This document shows positions 5,213 through 9,061 of a stretch of 23,091 nt of DNA, in pieces. The notes under the pieces are model-generated. The model was not told where the DNA came from and searched no databases. It saw only the letters and a list, made by a program, of their open reading frames with translations. Numbering within the stretch: the stretch's first letter is position 1; every line of letters starts with the position of its first letter. The position numbers were made by a program, and so were the translations under genes. The stretch is from a virus, in the IMG/VR virus record IMGVR_UViG_3300044608_001279, positions 1-23,091 of that record, one strand, 5' to 3'.

Positions 5213-5589
5213 TAAGCGCGAAAGGGGGCCAGTTGGCGAAAAAAAGTCTGAGGGGGGCTATGCGTCGCCGTCGTCGCCGGTCGAGCCTGGTCGACCCCCG
5301 CCCCCCCTGTCGTTGGTTTTCACGCGTCAAAATGCATTCCTACAGAGTAAAACTCCACTCTATTTGACTTGTCTTGTATTGTGTTATGGCCAACCTACTG
5401 AAGCGCAACAGCTTGCAAGGGCTGGTCAAACGGCAGGTGTAGGGATGGTGCGTTTGATGCTCGGCGGACCACGAGTGACGGGCTGGAACGGGCTGCCAAG
5501 TGCGAGCTGCGGGGCTGCCGTGAGCGCGCGCGGTCGTTGCTTGTGGCGTGGGGGCTGTAACGCATTTACTTCGTGTACGAACTATTTCC

Positions 5590-5735
5590 CCCACACACGC
5601 ACGCCCGCTCTCTCGCCGCACGCCCGCACTCGCCCGCACTCCGCAGCACGTCCCACAGTCACGCCTCTCGTGCACTCACCGAGCCGCACTCACTCGCACG
5701 CACGCACTCACCAGGCACGCACGCACTACGCACTT
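5590..5735. repeat. CGCAC-rich low-complexity tract
   Basis: The plus strand is strongly C/A-rich, with irregular copies of CGCACGC, CGCACTC and CGCCCGCAC. Short runs of CGCACGCACGCAC also occur in the other rightward spacer at 8267-8281. It shows marked strand asymmetry. It could be a replication or packaging landmark, or simply simple-sequence drift. Confidence 0.6.
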
Positions 5736-5798
5736 TTCTTTGCCTATCGTCACTTTTTTGTTGCTTACTTGTGCAAAGCGCCGTATTTTTGCCCTCGT

Positions 5799-5993
5799 AT
5801 GAATAACACATCACTAATCGACTCCCTAAACGCAGAGCTGCAATCCGCACAAGCTGAATTGCTTGCACTCCGCACAGCGGGCACGCTTGGCATGCCAATC
5901 ACAGAGGCTTATCTGCGTATCTTAAACGCAACAAATGCTTTAATGGCCTACAGAGTCGCCGTATTAGAGCGCGCTTGTGTCACGCTGGCCTAA
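5799..5993 (+). CDS. Small helical protein
   Basis: The protein has 64 residues, MNNTSLIDSLNAELQSAQ..., and is almost entirely helical and Ala/Leu-rich. The N-terminal half (residues 5-27) has a heptad-like pattern suggesting a short coiled coil. I chose the ATG at 5799; the frame is open much further upstream, but that extension is low-complexity sequence in the spacer. It is the first rightward gene after the divergence region. No Shine-Dalgarno precedes it. The family is not recognised. Confidence 0.6.
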   Translation: MNNTSLIDSLNAELQSAQAELLALRTAGTLGMPITEAYLRILNATNALMAYRVAVLERACVTLA

Positions 5994-6013
5994 CCTCAAC
6001 CAACCCAACTTTT

Positions 6014-6145
6014 ATGCCCATCGAATCCATGAACACACTAGAACACATCGCTTATGTCCGTCTCTCCCTTCAGCTTATGGCTGCAGGCTGCTTGCTGATC
6101 ACCGCAACCCTGTGGTTGTCAGCGCTTAAAGACGCTCGCAAGTAA
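6014..6145 (+). CDS. Single-span membrane microprotein
   Basis: The protein has 43 residues. An N-terminal MPIESMNTLEHIAYVRLS is followed by one hydrophobic helix (about residues 19-38, ending ATLWLSAL) and a basic tail KDARK. By the positive-inside rule the C-terminus would be cytoplasmic. An internal ATG at 6029 could be the real start. It lies between two genes in the same orientation and fills an otherwise empty gap. The function is unknown; small membrane proteins in phage accessory blocks can be lysis or host-interaction factors. Confidence 0.5.
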   Translation: MPIESMNTLEHIAYVRLSLQLMAAGCLLITATLWLSALKDARK

Positions 6146-6158
6146 AACTCAGCAACCT

Positions 6159-6176
6159 AACACACTACAAACAAAA
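6159..6176 (+). repeat. 18-base leader repeat, copy 1 (before ArdA)
   Basis: AACACACTACAAACAAAA is found here and identically at 6699-6716 and 6980-6997, each time exactly three bases before an ATG. No Shine-Dalgarno lies between the repeat and the start. Confidence 0.85.
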
Positions 6177-6179
6177 CAT

Positions 6180-6689
6180 ATGACAACCACAACAGAACCC
6201 AGAATATACGTTGGAACTTACGCCAAGTACGCAAGCGGCTCAATCAAGGGAGCTTGGATCGATCTTGATGGGCATGACGCTGATTCATTCCGCGAAGCAT
6301 GCTTGGAACTACATGCAGATGAGCAAGATCCTGAGCTGATGTTTCAAGACTTTGAAGGCTTTCCCAAAAGCTTTTACTCTGAATCCTCTGTGCCGCAGAT
6401 GCTTTGGGACTGGATTGCGTGCACTGAGCGAGAGCGCGATCTTTGGGAGGCTTACGCGGAGGCTGTAGGCTATCCGATAGAGGAAACTACGCTTGACCAA
6501 GCTCAAGAGGCTTTCGCTGGCGAATATGACGACGTTGAACATTTTTGCGAGGAACACTGTGAGGAAACCGAATGCCTCTCGGGAATCCCTGATTTCCTAC
6601 GCGACTGCATAGACTGGCGCGCCGTGTGGCAGTCCGCGCTGCGATATGACTACTGCGAACACAACGGAATGTTTTTTCGTAACAACTAA
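6180..6689 (+). CDS. ardA: ArdA-family anti-restriction protein
   Basis: The protein has 169 residues, the normal ArdA length. ArdA proteins mimic bent B-form DNA and block type I restriction-modification enzymes soon after DNA entry. The N-terminal signature RIYVGTYAKYASGSIKGAW (residues 8-26) and the DPELMFQDFEGFP segment (50-62) match the family. QEAFAGEYDDVEHF (about 108-121) corresponds to the region known as the antirestriction motif. The protein is rich in Asp/Glu, as expected for a DNA mimic. It is carried with its own leader repeat and lies in the rightward accessory block, consistent with early expression. The identification is strong by motif; activity is inferred from the family. 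Confidence 0.92.
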   Translation: MTTTTEPRIYVGTYAKYASGSIKGAWIDLDGHDADSFREACLELHADEQDPELMFQDFEGFPKSFYSESSVPQMLWDWIACTERERDLWEAYAEAVGYPIEETTLDQAQEAFAGEYDDVEHFCEEHCEETECLSGIPDFLRDCIDWRAVWQSALRYDYCEHNGMFFRNN

Positions 6690-6698
6690 CAAGCATCA

Positions 6699-6716
6699 AA
6701 CACACTACAAACAAAA
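6699..6716 (+). repeat. 18-base leader repeat, copy 2
   Basis: Identical to 6159-6176 and at the same 3-base distance from the next ATG (6720). Copies 2 and 3 also share two further bases upstream (CA). Confidence 0.85.
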
Positions 6717-6719
6717 CAC

Positions 6720-6917
6720 ATGAAAACTAAAGCAGAACAAGAATTTTTAAAAGAACTTAAGGCGTTGCTTCAAAAGTATAATGTTTCTATACAGGCTGGT
6801 ATAGAGTCTGACCCTCAAGGGATATACGGTGAGCATATGGCAATATTTGACTCTGGAGAAAACCCTGTTTACAGAGTCGAAGGATGGTCTTTATGTCAAT
6901 CAGACATTTGGGCCTAG
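6720..6917 (+). CDS. Small hypothetical phage protein
   Basis: The protein has 65 residues. A charged N-terminal helix (KAEQEFLKELKALLQKY) is followed by a probable beta-rich part (NVSIQAGI...GIYGEHMAIF...VYRVEGW). It resembles in outline the many small phage proteins with an LLKKYN helix and a two- or three-stranded sheet, for which no function is known to me. It lies directly after ArdA and has the same leader. The stop codon is inside the first of three small hairpins. Confidence 0.65.
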   Translation: MKTKAEQEFLKELKALLQKYNVSIQAGIESDPQGIYGEHMAIFDSGENPVYRVEGWSLCQSDIWA

Positions 6918-6974
6918 CAATCTAGGTTCCCACACTGCGTCTCTGCGGGGACGTAGTAGGGAGCAAAGTGCTCC
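6913..6974 (+). other. Three consecutive hairpins in a short spacer
   Basis: First stem: CCTAG-CAAT-CTAGG (6913-6926), overlapping the preceding stop codon. Second: CTGCGTC (6935-6941) with GACGTAG (6950-6956), extended by TTCCC/GGGAG (6927-6931 with 6959-6963). Third: GGAGCA-AAG-TGCTCC (6960-6974), competing at its base with the second. No T-run follows, so this is not a standard terminator. It could stabilise or process the mRNA between two genes. Confidence 0.6.
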
Positions 6975-6979
6975 ACACA

Positions 6980-6997
6980 AACACACTACAAACAAAA
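6980..6997 (+). repeat. 18-base leader repeat, copy 3 (before GP88-like gene)
   Basis: Third identical copy of AACACACTACAAACAAAA, again three bases before an ATG (7001). It sets the start of the GP88-like gene: the upstream in-frame ATG at 6968 would place the repeat inside the coding region. A degenerate relative (CCAACTAAACAAACAC) precedes the next gene at 7626. Confidence 0.85.
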
Positions 6998-7000
6998 TAT

Positions 7001-7606
7001 ATGCAGTTTACCTTATCACAACCATCAAAAATGCCTTGCCAAGGCTGGTCTGTTCCCGCTCTCGCATGTAAGACCGGCTCCAAACTCGCACAGGTTGAGG
7101 GATCCGTCTGCCATGGCTGCTACGCACTAAAAGGGTTCTACCGTATGCCAAACGTCCAGAGAACCTTGCAAGCGAGACTCGCTCTAATGGAATCGCCGCA
7201 ATGGGTGCCAGCGATGATTGCCAAGATTCGCGACACGGAGAAAAGCGGTTTCTTCCGTTGGTTCGATAGTGGCGACCTTCAAAGCATCAAGACGCTGAAA
7301 GCAATCGTCCGCATCGCTATCGCTTTGCCAGAGATACAGTTTTGGCTCCCCACAAAAGAGTACGGCATCGTCTCCGAGTACGTTGAATTGTTCGGCTCAT
7401 TCCCTCCAAACCTGACGGTGCGTTTGTCCGCCTATATGGTAGATAAAGCTGGGCCCAACAGCCTAGCGGAGGGCTTAGGCGTCACCACAAGCGAAGTCTC
7501 ATCAACGGCGGGTACATGTCCGGCGCCTACGCAAGGAAACAAATGCGGCGAGTGCCGGGCATGCTGGAACAAAGACATTCAGACTGTCACCTATAGACTC
7601 CACTAG
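7001..7606 (+). CDS. GP88-like cysteine-cluster phage protein
   Basis: The protein has 201 residues. Its N-terminus (LSQPSKMPCQGWSVPALAC), the CHGCYALKGFY motif at 37-47, FRWFDSGD (85-92), FWLPTKEY (114-121) and a C-terminal cysteine cluster match the phage GP88-like family (gene 88-type proteins of actinophages and many uncultured phages). Eight cysteines fall in two groups (C13, C23, C37, C40 and C173, C182, C185, C188), which suggests one or two bound metal ions or iron-sulfur clusters. The biochemical function of the family is not known to me. The start at 7001 is preferred because of the conserved leader. Confidence 0.75.
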   Translation: MQFTLSQPSKMPCQGWSVPALACKTGSKLAQVEGSVCHGCYALKGFYRMPNVQRTLQARLALMESPQWVPAMIAKIRDTEKSGFFRWFDSGDLQSIKTLKAIVRIAIALPEIQFWLPTKEYGIVSEYVELFGSFPPNLTVRLSAYMVDKAGPNSLAEGLGVTTSEVSSTAGTCPAPTQGNKCGECRACWNKDIQTVTYRLH

Positions 7607-7625
7607 CATCCAACTAAACAAACAC

Positions 7626-7835
7626 ATGAGAATTCCCACACTAATCAAAGCTAAAGCCTCTCTAGAGGCAGCCATTTGGTTTCACGAAAACGCTGATATG
7701 CGTCTTTCATTAATGGATGACGCTATGAAGGCCATAGAGGCCGCCATTGAGGCCGTCAACGGCGCAAAAGAGGATGCGCACCGTATGGAAGGTCGCGCAA
7801 ACGTAGACACCGAGCTATTGGAGGAGCTGGCCTAA
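7626..7835 (+). CDS. Small helical hypothetical protein
   Basis: The protein has 69 residues and is rich in Ala, Glu and Met, probably two or three helices (SLEAAIWFHENADMRLSLMDDAMKAIEAAIEAV). It starts after an A/C-rich leader resembling the 18-base repeat (AACTAAACAAACAC-ATG). Its last codons contain GAGGAG, which doubles as a Shine-Dalgarno for the next gene; the two genes overlap by one base (TAATG). The family is not recognised. Confidence 0.65.
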   Translation: MRIPTLIKAKASLEAAIWFHENADMRLSLMDDAMKAIEAAIEAVNGAKEDAHRMEGRANVDTELLEELA

Positions 7836-8122
7836 TGTACTACAAAGTTAAATTACACGTTGATCCGTTCGCGGATCAGTTAACCCCAGAGGTGTATCGC
7901 AACCCCTCATCGGCGCATGCAGACGCCCAAAGGATGTATGACGATGGCGAGTATAGCGTTGTCCCATACACGCTCCCAGAGCGCCTAGAATCGGCTCTCT
8001 CGCGACTGTGGCGAGCCGATGCCAACGGAGCGGCCGCATCGATGTCTGACCTGTTTGATGGGTACGACCCCGAGTTGTTGGTTGATGAGATAGAGCGTGC
8101 GCTTGCTAACATGGACGCCTAA
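7835..8122 (+). CDS. Hypothetical protein, last gene of rightward block
   Basis: The protein has 95 residues. The N-terminal part (MYYKVKLHVDPFADQL...SSAHADAQRMYDDGEYSVVPY) looks like a small alpha/beta fold. The C-terminal part is acidic and helical (SDLFDGYDPELLVDEIERALANMDA). A good Shine-Dalgarno (GAGGAG, eight bases before the ATG) and a one-base overlap couple it to the previous gene. An intrinsic terminator follows 18 bases after the stop, so this closes the rightward transcript. Confidence 0.7.
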   Translation: MYYKVKLHVDPFADQLTPEVYRNPSSAHADAQRMYDDGEYSVVPYTLPERLESALSRLWRADANGAAASMSDLFDGYDPELLVDEIERALANMDA

Positions 8123-8139
8123 CCCATCGCTAAGGAAAC

Positions 8140-8168
8140 GCCCCTAGGTTCACCGCCTAGGGGCTTTT
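8140..8168 (+). terminator. Intrinsic terminator of rightward block
   Basis: GCCCCTAGG (8140-8148), loop TTCACCG, CCTAGGGGC (8156-8164), then TTTT. A perfect 9-base-pair GC-rich stem with a short T-run, 18 bases after the stop of the last gene. Confidence 0.88.
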
Positions 8169-8231
8169 GCGCGCCCTTTTCTCGTATGATCTAACCTTCT
8201 CACATTCAATTCTTTCGCGCCTTTTTGGTCT

Positions 8232-8258
8232 GAAAAGCATCACTTTTTGACGCTTTTC
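8232..8258. other. Near-perfect hairpin
   Basis: GAAAAGCATCA (8232-8242) and TGACGCTTTTC (8248-8258) pair over 11 positions with one A-C mismatch and a 5-base loop. No T-run follows. It may be a protein-binding site or a weak backup terminator. Confidence 0.5.
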
Positions 8259-8349
8259 CACGCCAAACGCACGCACGCACCCATACCCAGTACCCGCATC
8301 GCCGCATCATCCAGGCCGTTTTCGGCTTTCGGTTTGCCCAGGCCAAAAC

Positions 8350-8458
8350 CAAATTTGAAATTTGAATTTAGAAAACCAATTTTGATTTTGAAATCACCAA
8401 TACTATTTTGATTTTGAAATCTGGAATCAGAAAAGCAAATTTGATTTCAGATAAGCAA
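8350..8458. repeat. A/T-rich repeats built on AAATTTGAATTT and TTTTGAAATC
   Basis: The tract contains AAATTTGAAATTTGAATTT, then two copies of ATTTTGATTTTGAAATC about 25 bases apart, then a partial AAATTTGATTTC. The same words recur inside genes at 8973-8994 (AAATTTGAATTTGGAATC) and 9802-9836 (AAATTTGAATTTC and TTTTGAAATCTCC). The tract stands out from the surrounding GC-balanced sequence. Confidence 0.6.
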
Positions 8459-8478
8459 AACCAAAACCAAAAGCACAT

Positions 8479-8673
8479 ATGAAAACCTACAGAGTCAAAA
8501 TCGTTTCACGCTACGAAGACGGCACAGAGGAAGAAATAATGCACGTCAGTGCCTATGATGCCTCTCACGCCGAAGAAAAGGCCTTTGAGGCTTGCGGAGG
8601 GCCATCAGGCCACTGTGGCAACGTAACGTTTCACGCTACGCTACTCAAATCCCGTCGAATTCCACGGAATTAA
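8479..8673 (+). CDS. Small hypothetical protein
   Basis: The protein has 64 residues. The N-terminus reads like a small beta-alpha-beta fold (MKTYRVKIVSRYEDGTEEEIMHVSAYDASHAEEKAF), followed by a Gly/Cys/His-containing segment and a basic end SRRIPRN. Its start follows an A/C-rich SD-less leader (CAAAACCAAAAGCACAT-ATG), as in the upstream rightward genes. It is convergent with the leftward operon, and the two stop codons interlock inside a palindrome. The function is unknown. Confidence 0.6.
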   Translation: MKTYRVKIVSRYEDGTEEEIMHVSAYDASHAEEKAFEACGGPSGHCGNVTFHATLLKSRRIPRN

Positions 8674-8678
8674 TTCCG
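8665..8678. other. Palindrome holding two convergent stop codons
   Basis: CGGAATTAATTCCG is a perfect 14-base palindrome. The rightward gene stops at TAA 8671-8673 and the leftward operon stops at TAA read from 8672-8670. It may act as a protein-binding site or a minimal boundary between opposing transcripts. Confidence 0.7.
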
Positions 8679-8852
8679 CCCCAACCCTCGCGCCTCTCGC
8701 GCAACCTGGCGCAAGCTCTGGAGCAGCACCCGGAGCCTCTGCGCCAGTGCCGTCTCACGCCTATGCACTAGCACATACATCCGCTTCCACTTCGCAGCTT
8801 CACTCGCATAAAACTCTGCCTCTTCCTCTAGAGCTGCGCAGTCCTGGCACAT
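8670..8852 (-). CDS. Small helical protein, last gene of the long operon
   Basis: The protein has 60 residues, starting MCQDCAALEEEAEFYASEAAKW and continuing as a long basic helix (RETALAQRLRVLLQSLRQVAREA), probably a coiled coil. A single CxxC lies at residues 2-5. A good Shine-Dalgarno (GGAG, eight bases upstream) supports the ATG at 8852 over the longer frame. It overlaps the preceding gene by 25 bases. The function is unknown. Confidence 0.6.
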   Translation of the reverse strand: MCQDCAALEEEAEFYASEAAKWKRMYVLVHRRETALAQRLRVLLQSLRQVAREARGLGRN

Positions 8853-9061
8853 AGTTCGCTCTCCAAGCGTGCTATCCTGACATGCTGCGCCGTGATCACG
8901 CGCCAATACCGCTCGGTAAGATCGCGCAGGTCGAGCACCTCGTTGGCCAAATCAATCCCGCTCGGTAAAACCAAATTTGAATTTGGAATCTCCAAAAGCA
9001 ATTTCGAATCTAGCTTGAAATTTGGAAGGCTGACTTCCGATTTACAAGGTTGCTCTGCCAT
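8828..9061 (-). CDS. Small coiled-coil protein
   Basis: The protein has 77 residues. The first half (SLPNFKLDSKLLLEIPNSNL) is encoded by the same A/T-rich repeat words seen at 8350-8458. The second half is a helix ending RIARLESELCARTAQL. I chose the ATG at 9061, five bases after the stop of the upstream gene; in-frame ATGs at 9088 and 9091 would overlap that gene. The family is not recognised. The repeat-derived first half may be recent sequence. Confidence 0.5.
   Translation of the reverse strand: MAEQPCKSEVSLPNFKLDSKLLLEIPNSNLVLPSGIDLANEVLDLRDLTERYWRVITAQHVRIARLESELCARTAQL

Follow-up and report, generated by a model that had tools for sequence, protein, structure and literature searches.

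Why does one phage carry the same 18 bases in front of three unrelated genes? The DNA analysed here, referred to as the window (23,091 nucleotides), is a 23 kb phage fragment with terminase, portal and DnaB-like helicase genes on its minus strand and, opposite to most of its other genes, a block of accessory genes on the plus strand (5799 to about 8168). Within this block, the 18-mer AACACACTACAAACAAAA is found in three exact plus-strand copies falling within 840 bp, each separated by 3 nt from an ATG: by CAT from that of ArdA (6180), by CAC from that of a 65-aa ORF (6720) and by TAT from that of GP88 (7001). A first-pass annotation had described these copies and proposed that they serve a function in expression or form a cassette boundary at which accessory genes are swapped. 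In our view, with a probability of roughly 55%, the copies are translation-initiation leaders of the accessory operon that do without a Shine-Dalgarno (SD) sequence and resemble the start-associated sequences (SAS) of other phages, and their conserved flanks also mark or serve the exchange of ORFs.

The accessory operon and its leaders

The features of the block are as follows.

5799-5993, plus strand: first gene of the accessory operon (64 aa), without a core (see below) upstream, as in five relatives
6014-6145, plus strand: small membrane-type protein (MNTLEHIAYVRLSL...), start at 6014 or 6029; a conserved gene directly before the variable part
6159-6176, plus strand: leader copy 1 (core 6159-6170, spacer 6171-6179, then the ATG at 6180)
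6180-6689, plus strand: ArdA antirestriction protein (Pfam PF07275, 6e-22)
6699-6716, plus strand: leader copy 2
6720-6917, plus strand: 65-aa protein without a family, which, according to the slot analysis, is what this phage carries in the exchangeable ORF slot
6923-6974, plus strand: intercistronic RNA module (TAG at 6923-6925, then helices at 6926-6974)
6926-6931 with 6959-6964, plus strand: helix P1 of the module
6935-6956, plus strand: hairpin P2 of the module, with a UGCG loop at 6944-6947
6960-6964 with 6970-6974, plus strand: helix P3 of the module, exclusive with P1
6980-6997, plus strand: leader copy 3, 5 nt 3' of the module
7001-7606, plus strand: GP88-like protein (Pfam PF17338, about 2e-25)
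7626-7835, plus strand: 69-aa gene with an A/C-rich leader, without a core
7835-8122, plus strand: 95-aa gene whose ATG overlaps the stop codon of the upstream gene, without a leader
8140-8168, plus strand: terminator-like hairpin GCCCCTAGG-TTCACCG-CCTAGGGGC-TTTT, probably the end of the operon; seen in the sequence, while the terminator scan listed its inverted repeat on the minus strand only

Beyond the three copies, no match to the 18-mer with up to three mismatches is present in the window, and the repeat did not arise in any of 100 dinucleotide shuffles. The genes behind the copies are as first annotated, with ArdA and GP88 (1.6e-25) recognized by Pfam and the 65-aa protein matching nothing in Pfam or PHROG, and, as had also been noted, none of the three is preceded by an SD. 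In contrast, the ‘weaker relative’ of the leader reported before 7626 did not hold up, being only A/C-rich, and a core is absent from all four loci at which that gene was found. The accessory block as a whole has no DNA match among named phages and plasmids. Two further sequence features were observed around its end: the 5' part of the terminator-like hairpin, CCTAGGTTC, resembles the start of the RNA module, CCTAGGTTCCC, and A/T-rich imperfect repeats containing TTTGAAATTTGAA occur at 8345-8444 and 8967-9007.

A conserved 12-mer among related phages

Relatives were gathered by scanning viral contigs and by searches with ArdA and GP88; all are metagenomic or uncultured sequences with predicted starts, and they are not independent of one another. 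Their comparison showed that the repeat is real, but that its conserved part is shorter than the 18 bases originally taken as the unit: it is the 12-mer core AACACACTACAA, of which the 18-mer is the local form in the window, whereas the bases 3' of it and its distance to the ATG (mostly 7-11 nt, range 0-12) differ among relatives. With at most one mismatch, AACACACTACAAA is present in 42 of 50 related phage contigs, usually in 1-4 copies each, a frequency that holds for loci picked via GP88, ArdA or the motif itself and not for these phages generally. Nearly all core copies in these contigs share the strand of the accessory block, and the few opposite-strand matches inspected sit within other sequence. 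The search for the repeat before other accessory genes, suggested at the outset, found the core upstream of 27 ORF clusters, a number that depends on ORF calling and includes spurious ORFs (e.g. a minus-strand family at the divergent region); about 20 were judged to be real, unrelated small accessory genes. In these phages, structural and replication genes are not preceded by the core. It was not seen before the first gene of the operon at five loci, and precedes homologues of the membrane-type gene in only 3 of about 34 distinct contexts.

At 24 GP88 loci, pairwise identity is 94% in the core but only 47% at the four-fold-degenerate sites of GP88 and 43% over the 15 nt that precede the core, and, because of this difference, the constraint on the 12-mer is, as far as these alignments indicate, sequence-specific. 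Its retention at synonymous saturation therefore points to strong selection or to repeated homogenisation. The copies could be kept alike through recombinational homogenisation, which is disfavoured because it should have preserved the flanks too. Relatives of GP88 with about 70% identity keep a close variant of the core (e.g. AACAAACTACAA in L069), and more distant homologues (L077, L078 and L094) have an ordinary SD where the core would stand. In addition, start regions with a core are predicted to be open, with a mean unpaired probability of 0.83 versus 0.51 for other genes of these phages and 0.41 for random sites. The proposal that the conservation reflects function is strengthened by all three observations.

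Not every resemblance to the repeat belongs to it. AT-rich matches in the 18-mer scan (L004, L006, L010 and L012) are due to chance and have no usable gene behind them. On the minus strand, AACACAATACAA at 5374-5385, in the divergent intergenic region, first resembled the core and is assigned to another element, since in about 30 relatives it is replaced by AACGATGCACAA, AACAGTTTACAA or further variants. It lies in a part of the window (5340-5450, minus strand) containing a conserved non-coding stretch with TTTGACC, CCCTTGCAAGC, TTGGCCATAAC, GTCATATGGA and TTTTACTCTGTAAAA, kept in about 30 relatives, which is possibly a promoter or operator of the leftward operon.

The host is probably a member of the Verrucomicrobiota. 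The best pointer is a terminase with 68% identity on a contig of a Pedosphaera MAG (289 Verrucomicrobiota genomes searched; others reached about 30-43%), a contig that may itself be a binning error, and module plus core were found in none of 388 Verrucomicrobiota genomes. SD-scarce Verrucomicrobia are on record (PMC10783764). SD-like motifs precede 12-14% of the genes in these phages, an approximate count taking the first ATG as the start and, by our own estimate, about chance level, and they are likewise about chance-level among sampled genes of two Verrucomicrobiota genomes. Relatives of the Pedosphaera MAG, in which 16S genes were located by BLAST, carry the canonical CCTCC 16S tail. The core forms no duplex with the anti-SD tail, and its longest pairing with 16S rRNA (5-8 nt) is the same as that of shuffled cores.

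An RNA module and an exchangeable ORF slot

Missed by the first-pass annotation was a structured RNA module at 6926-6974, upstream of leader copy 3 and present once per genome in many relatives. Its layout is GTTCCC-[P2]-GGGAGC-AAAGAC-GCTCC, directly preceded by a TAG that is usually the stop codon of the upstream gene itself; in the window, the upstream gene ends 8 nt earlier, yet the TAG triplet before GTTCCC is retained. The window module has a folding z of -5.1 and scores 56.6 bits against a covariance model of which the window sequence is itself part. In the alignment, 99.4% of P1 and P2 cells are paired (about 50% when slid), and 27 double-change cells, all in P2, compare with 10.4 in shuffles; by this measure, P2 covaries as an RNA hairpin. 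Its loops are mostly UACG or UGCG (UNCG-type), so RNA rather than DNA is indicated. GGGAGC can pair with GTTCCC (P1) or with GCTCC (P3), never with both, and in most sequences P1 is the more stable of the two by about 3 kcal/mol. Because P1 is almost invariant within the group, covariation neither backs nor opposes it, and the conservation of P1 and P3 is partly by construction, as the modules were collected with a model and with patterns in which the letters of both helices are fixed. Searches of window 5500-8700 and of two other module-bearing contigs (L188 and L108) against Rfam covariance models gave no match at the module. Three other identities were considered and rejected: an intrinsic terminator (P3 is followed by A/C-rich sequence with no T run, and the terminator scan did not list the module), an integron attC site (inspection of the aligned modules shows no conserved RYYYAAC/GTTRRRY ends) and pairing between module and core (present in the window as GUAGU with ACUAC, but on inspection not conserved).

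The same covariance model, R1, detects the module in at least three other phage groups with different leaders. In an unrelated GC-rich phage (L188), two copies (6436-6501 and 6847-6912) lie in successive gaps behind an ArdC-like/zincin-like gene (our reading of the sequence) and precede repeated AACGAAAGGAAAA-type leaders, which contain an SD; this module has no DNA match among named phages and plasmids. One module ahead of a AACGAAAGGAAAA leader is also found in L211/L212. A weaker, diverged match (E 0.007) occurs at 7603-7683 of L108, a phage contig binned with a Pedosphaera MAG, and reads TGA-GTTTTTCC-[P2]-GGAAGC-GCTCC-GCTTC before a (CAAA)n leader. If this match is homologous, the three competing strands have all changed in concert, and this would speak for the exchange between P1 and P3. 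A family of 88-90-aa proteins (IAVLVNYVG.TNTKGARIKL...) stands behind the module in all seven of its cases (L040, L185, L186, L193, L194, L197 and L200).

Leader and module together delimit a slot. In 18 phages, an ORF fits exactly between them, and these ORFs belong to 10 unrelated families, which lends weight to the suggested cassette boundary; TAG precedes GTTCCC in 18/18. Non-homologous slot ORFs were compared in 143 pairs. For these, mean global identity reaches 0.74 in the sequence 5' of the core, 0.80 within the leader and 0.83 within the module, whereas the 60 nt at either end of the ORFs stand at 0.58, equal to the unrelated background of 0.58; the similarity is therefore bounded by the start codon and the stop codon. 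Alignment ends fall within 25 bp of the core in 29-31% of cases versus 5% at random. An example is ArdA in the window and in L011, which retains its leader in both but follows the membrane-type gene in one of them and the module in the other. Judged by these alignments, the accessory genes resemble cassettes that are exchanged between pre-existing stop and start signals.

We propose the following model. The leader, an unstructured A/C-rich 12-mer AACACACTACAA with a short A-rich spacer, would serve in the mRNA to initiate translation of internal genes of a polycistronic accessory operon, the phages themselves making little use of SD sequences, and ribosomes may recognise it, perhaps through protein S1. 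One gap per genome also holds the RNA module, with a stable P2 and with P1 and P3 competing for GGGAGC right behind the TAG triplet. ORFs have been exchanged between the resulting fixed ‘stop - module - leader - start’ signals, with recombination presumably using the conserved flanks as homology, and P1/P3 might respond to translation of the upstream gene. The layout thus suggests how phages may swap antirestriction and other small accessory genes with operon expression unbroken, and provides a means of recognising such genes. As a covarying element without an Rfam match that recurs in unrelated phages, the module is a testable RNA-element candidate. It is tempting, though this goes well beyond the preferred reading and is more doubtful, to regard it as a novel type of intercistronic RNA switch in phages, coupling each cassette gene to translation of the preceding one: a ribosome ending at the TAG would cover the 5' arm of P1 and free GGGAGC, P3 would form, and access to the start leader would be set, in unrelated phages with SD and non-SD leaders alike.

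Competing explanations and known systems

Three observations speak against the preferred reading, namely the absence of the core before structural and replication genes, where a general ribosome site could also stand, a spacing of 0-3 nt in some genes, which is closer than direct ribosome contact would be expected to allow, and a complementarity to 16S rRNA that does not exceed chance. The strongest rival, conceivable if clearly less probable than translation-initiation leaders, is that the 12-mer is an RNA operator through which a phage RNA-binding protein or small RNA toggles translation of the accessory genes in the manner of T4 RegA; it ranks first because the motif occurs within a single operon and lies at a loose distance from the ATG, and it also fits a sequence specificity exceeding mere A-richness. 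There is precedent in RegA, which occludes the initiation regions of about 30 T4 mRNAs (PMC3014915), but RegA sites are without clear sequence conservation, in contrast to a nearly invariant 12-mer, and no candidate regulator was identified here.

We consider it unlikely that leader and module are boundary sequences only, kept alike by short-homology recombination between phages and without a role in expression. The exact exchange of ORFs between them and the enrichment of alignment ends near the core are what this would predict, although gene borders attract alignment ends for other reasons too; homology arms should be conserved as blocks, whereas the core is fixed next to upstream sequence that has diverged to 43%, and P2 conserves pairing, not sequence. 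Quite unlikely, too, is a promoter or DNA operator, in which the genes would be transcribed separately, each leader being a -10-like element or a repressor site. TACAAA is similar to a weak -10 and SigA-like promoters are found inside Cluster K ESAS (PMC11373665), but a scan covering the sigma-70 type found no such promoter in window 5500-8700, the distance to the ATG is flexible, the core is absent before the first gene of the operon, the module shows RNA-type covariation and mostly UNCG loops, and the similar minus-strand sequence (5374-5385) does not keep the form of a core. Chance, or a gene unit recently duplicated in tandem along with its leader, would explain three identical copies so close together but is refuted by the conservation of the core at saturated synonymous divergence in 42 of 50 related contigs, by the shuffles and by the unrelatedness of the genes downstream.

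Translation-initiation leaders flanking exchanged ORFs, the reading we prefer, have partial parallels in several known systems. Short boundary sequences proposed for phage mosaicism (as cited in PMC3029335) likewise are conserved stretches at the borders of exchanged unrelated genes, whereas the boundary here, compared with that cited proposal, consists of specific start and RNA-structure elements. The non-SD leaders of SD-scarce bacteria (Bacteroidota and some Verrucomicrobia; PMC10783764, PMC6847099) share SD-independent initiation despite a canonical anti-SD, but represent genome-wide preferences, in contrast to an exact 12-mer confined to one operon. T4 RegA operators (PMC3014915) are also unstructured A-rich sites at the initiation regions of many early mRNAs, and they overlap or directly precede the AUG; no RegA relative is known here.

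The closest arrangement is that of the SAS and ESAS of Cluster K phages (PMC3203893), in which a short asymmetric motif stands upstream of many unrelated accessory starts, nearly always in one orientation and with a second conserved element directly upstream of part of the copies. The defining feature of an SAS, a conserved motif directly before multiple unrelated starts in one orientation, is found here as well, in phages and sequences unrelated to Cluster K. The Cluster K SAS GGGATAGGAGCCC contains the SD core AGGAG, whereas AACACACTACAA is without an SD. Similarly, Microbacterium Cluster EF phages have ten copies of a 13-bp start-associated motif, all accompanied by an upstream element, and no sequence relation to Cluster K was described (PMC7302621); this motif, GGGAAAGGACCCC, was shown with 16S complementarity, and there is none here. 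The motif in the window is thus neither GGGATAGGAGCCC nor GGGAAAGGACCCC with an SD core, and does not pair with the host-type 16S tail. The upstream elements differ too: ESAS are 17-bp imperfect inverted repeats directly upstream of SAS, for which the Cluster K authors found no RNA pairing, whereas the module is a different, three-helix unit whose P2 covaries as RNA. ESAS have since been read as promoters, with a SigA-like promoter (PMC11373665), in contrast to window 5500-8700, where a scan for promoters of the sigma-70 type found none, and a 2025 survey still asks for experimental verification of SAS/ESAS function (PMC12699233). The leader works like SAS/ESAS in position, orientation and gene class, and is not a member of SAS by sequence. 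Start-associated sequences of actinobacterial phages have been reported without a known function, and the independent, SD-less case described here separates ‘start-associated’ from ‘good ribosome-binding site’ and offers a natural comparison.
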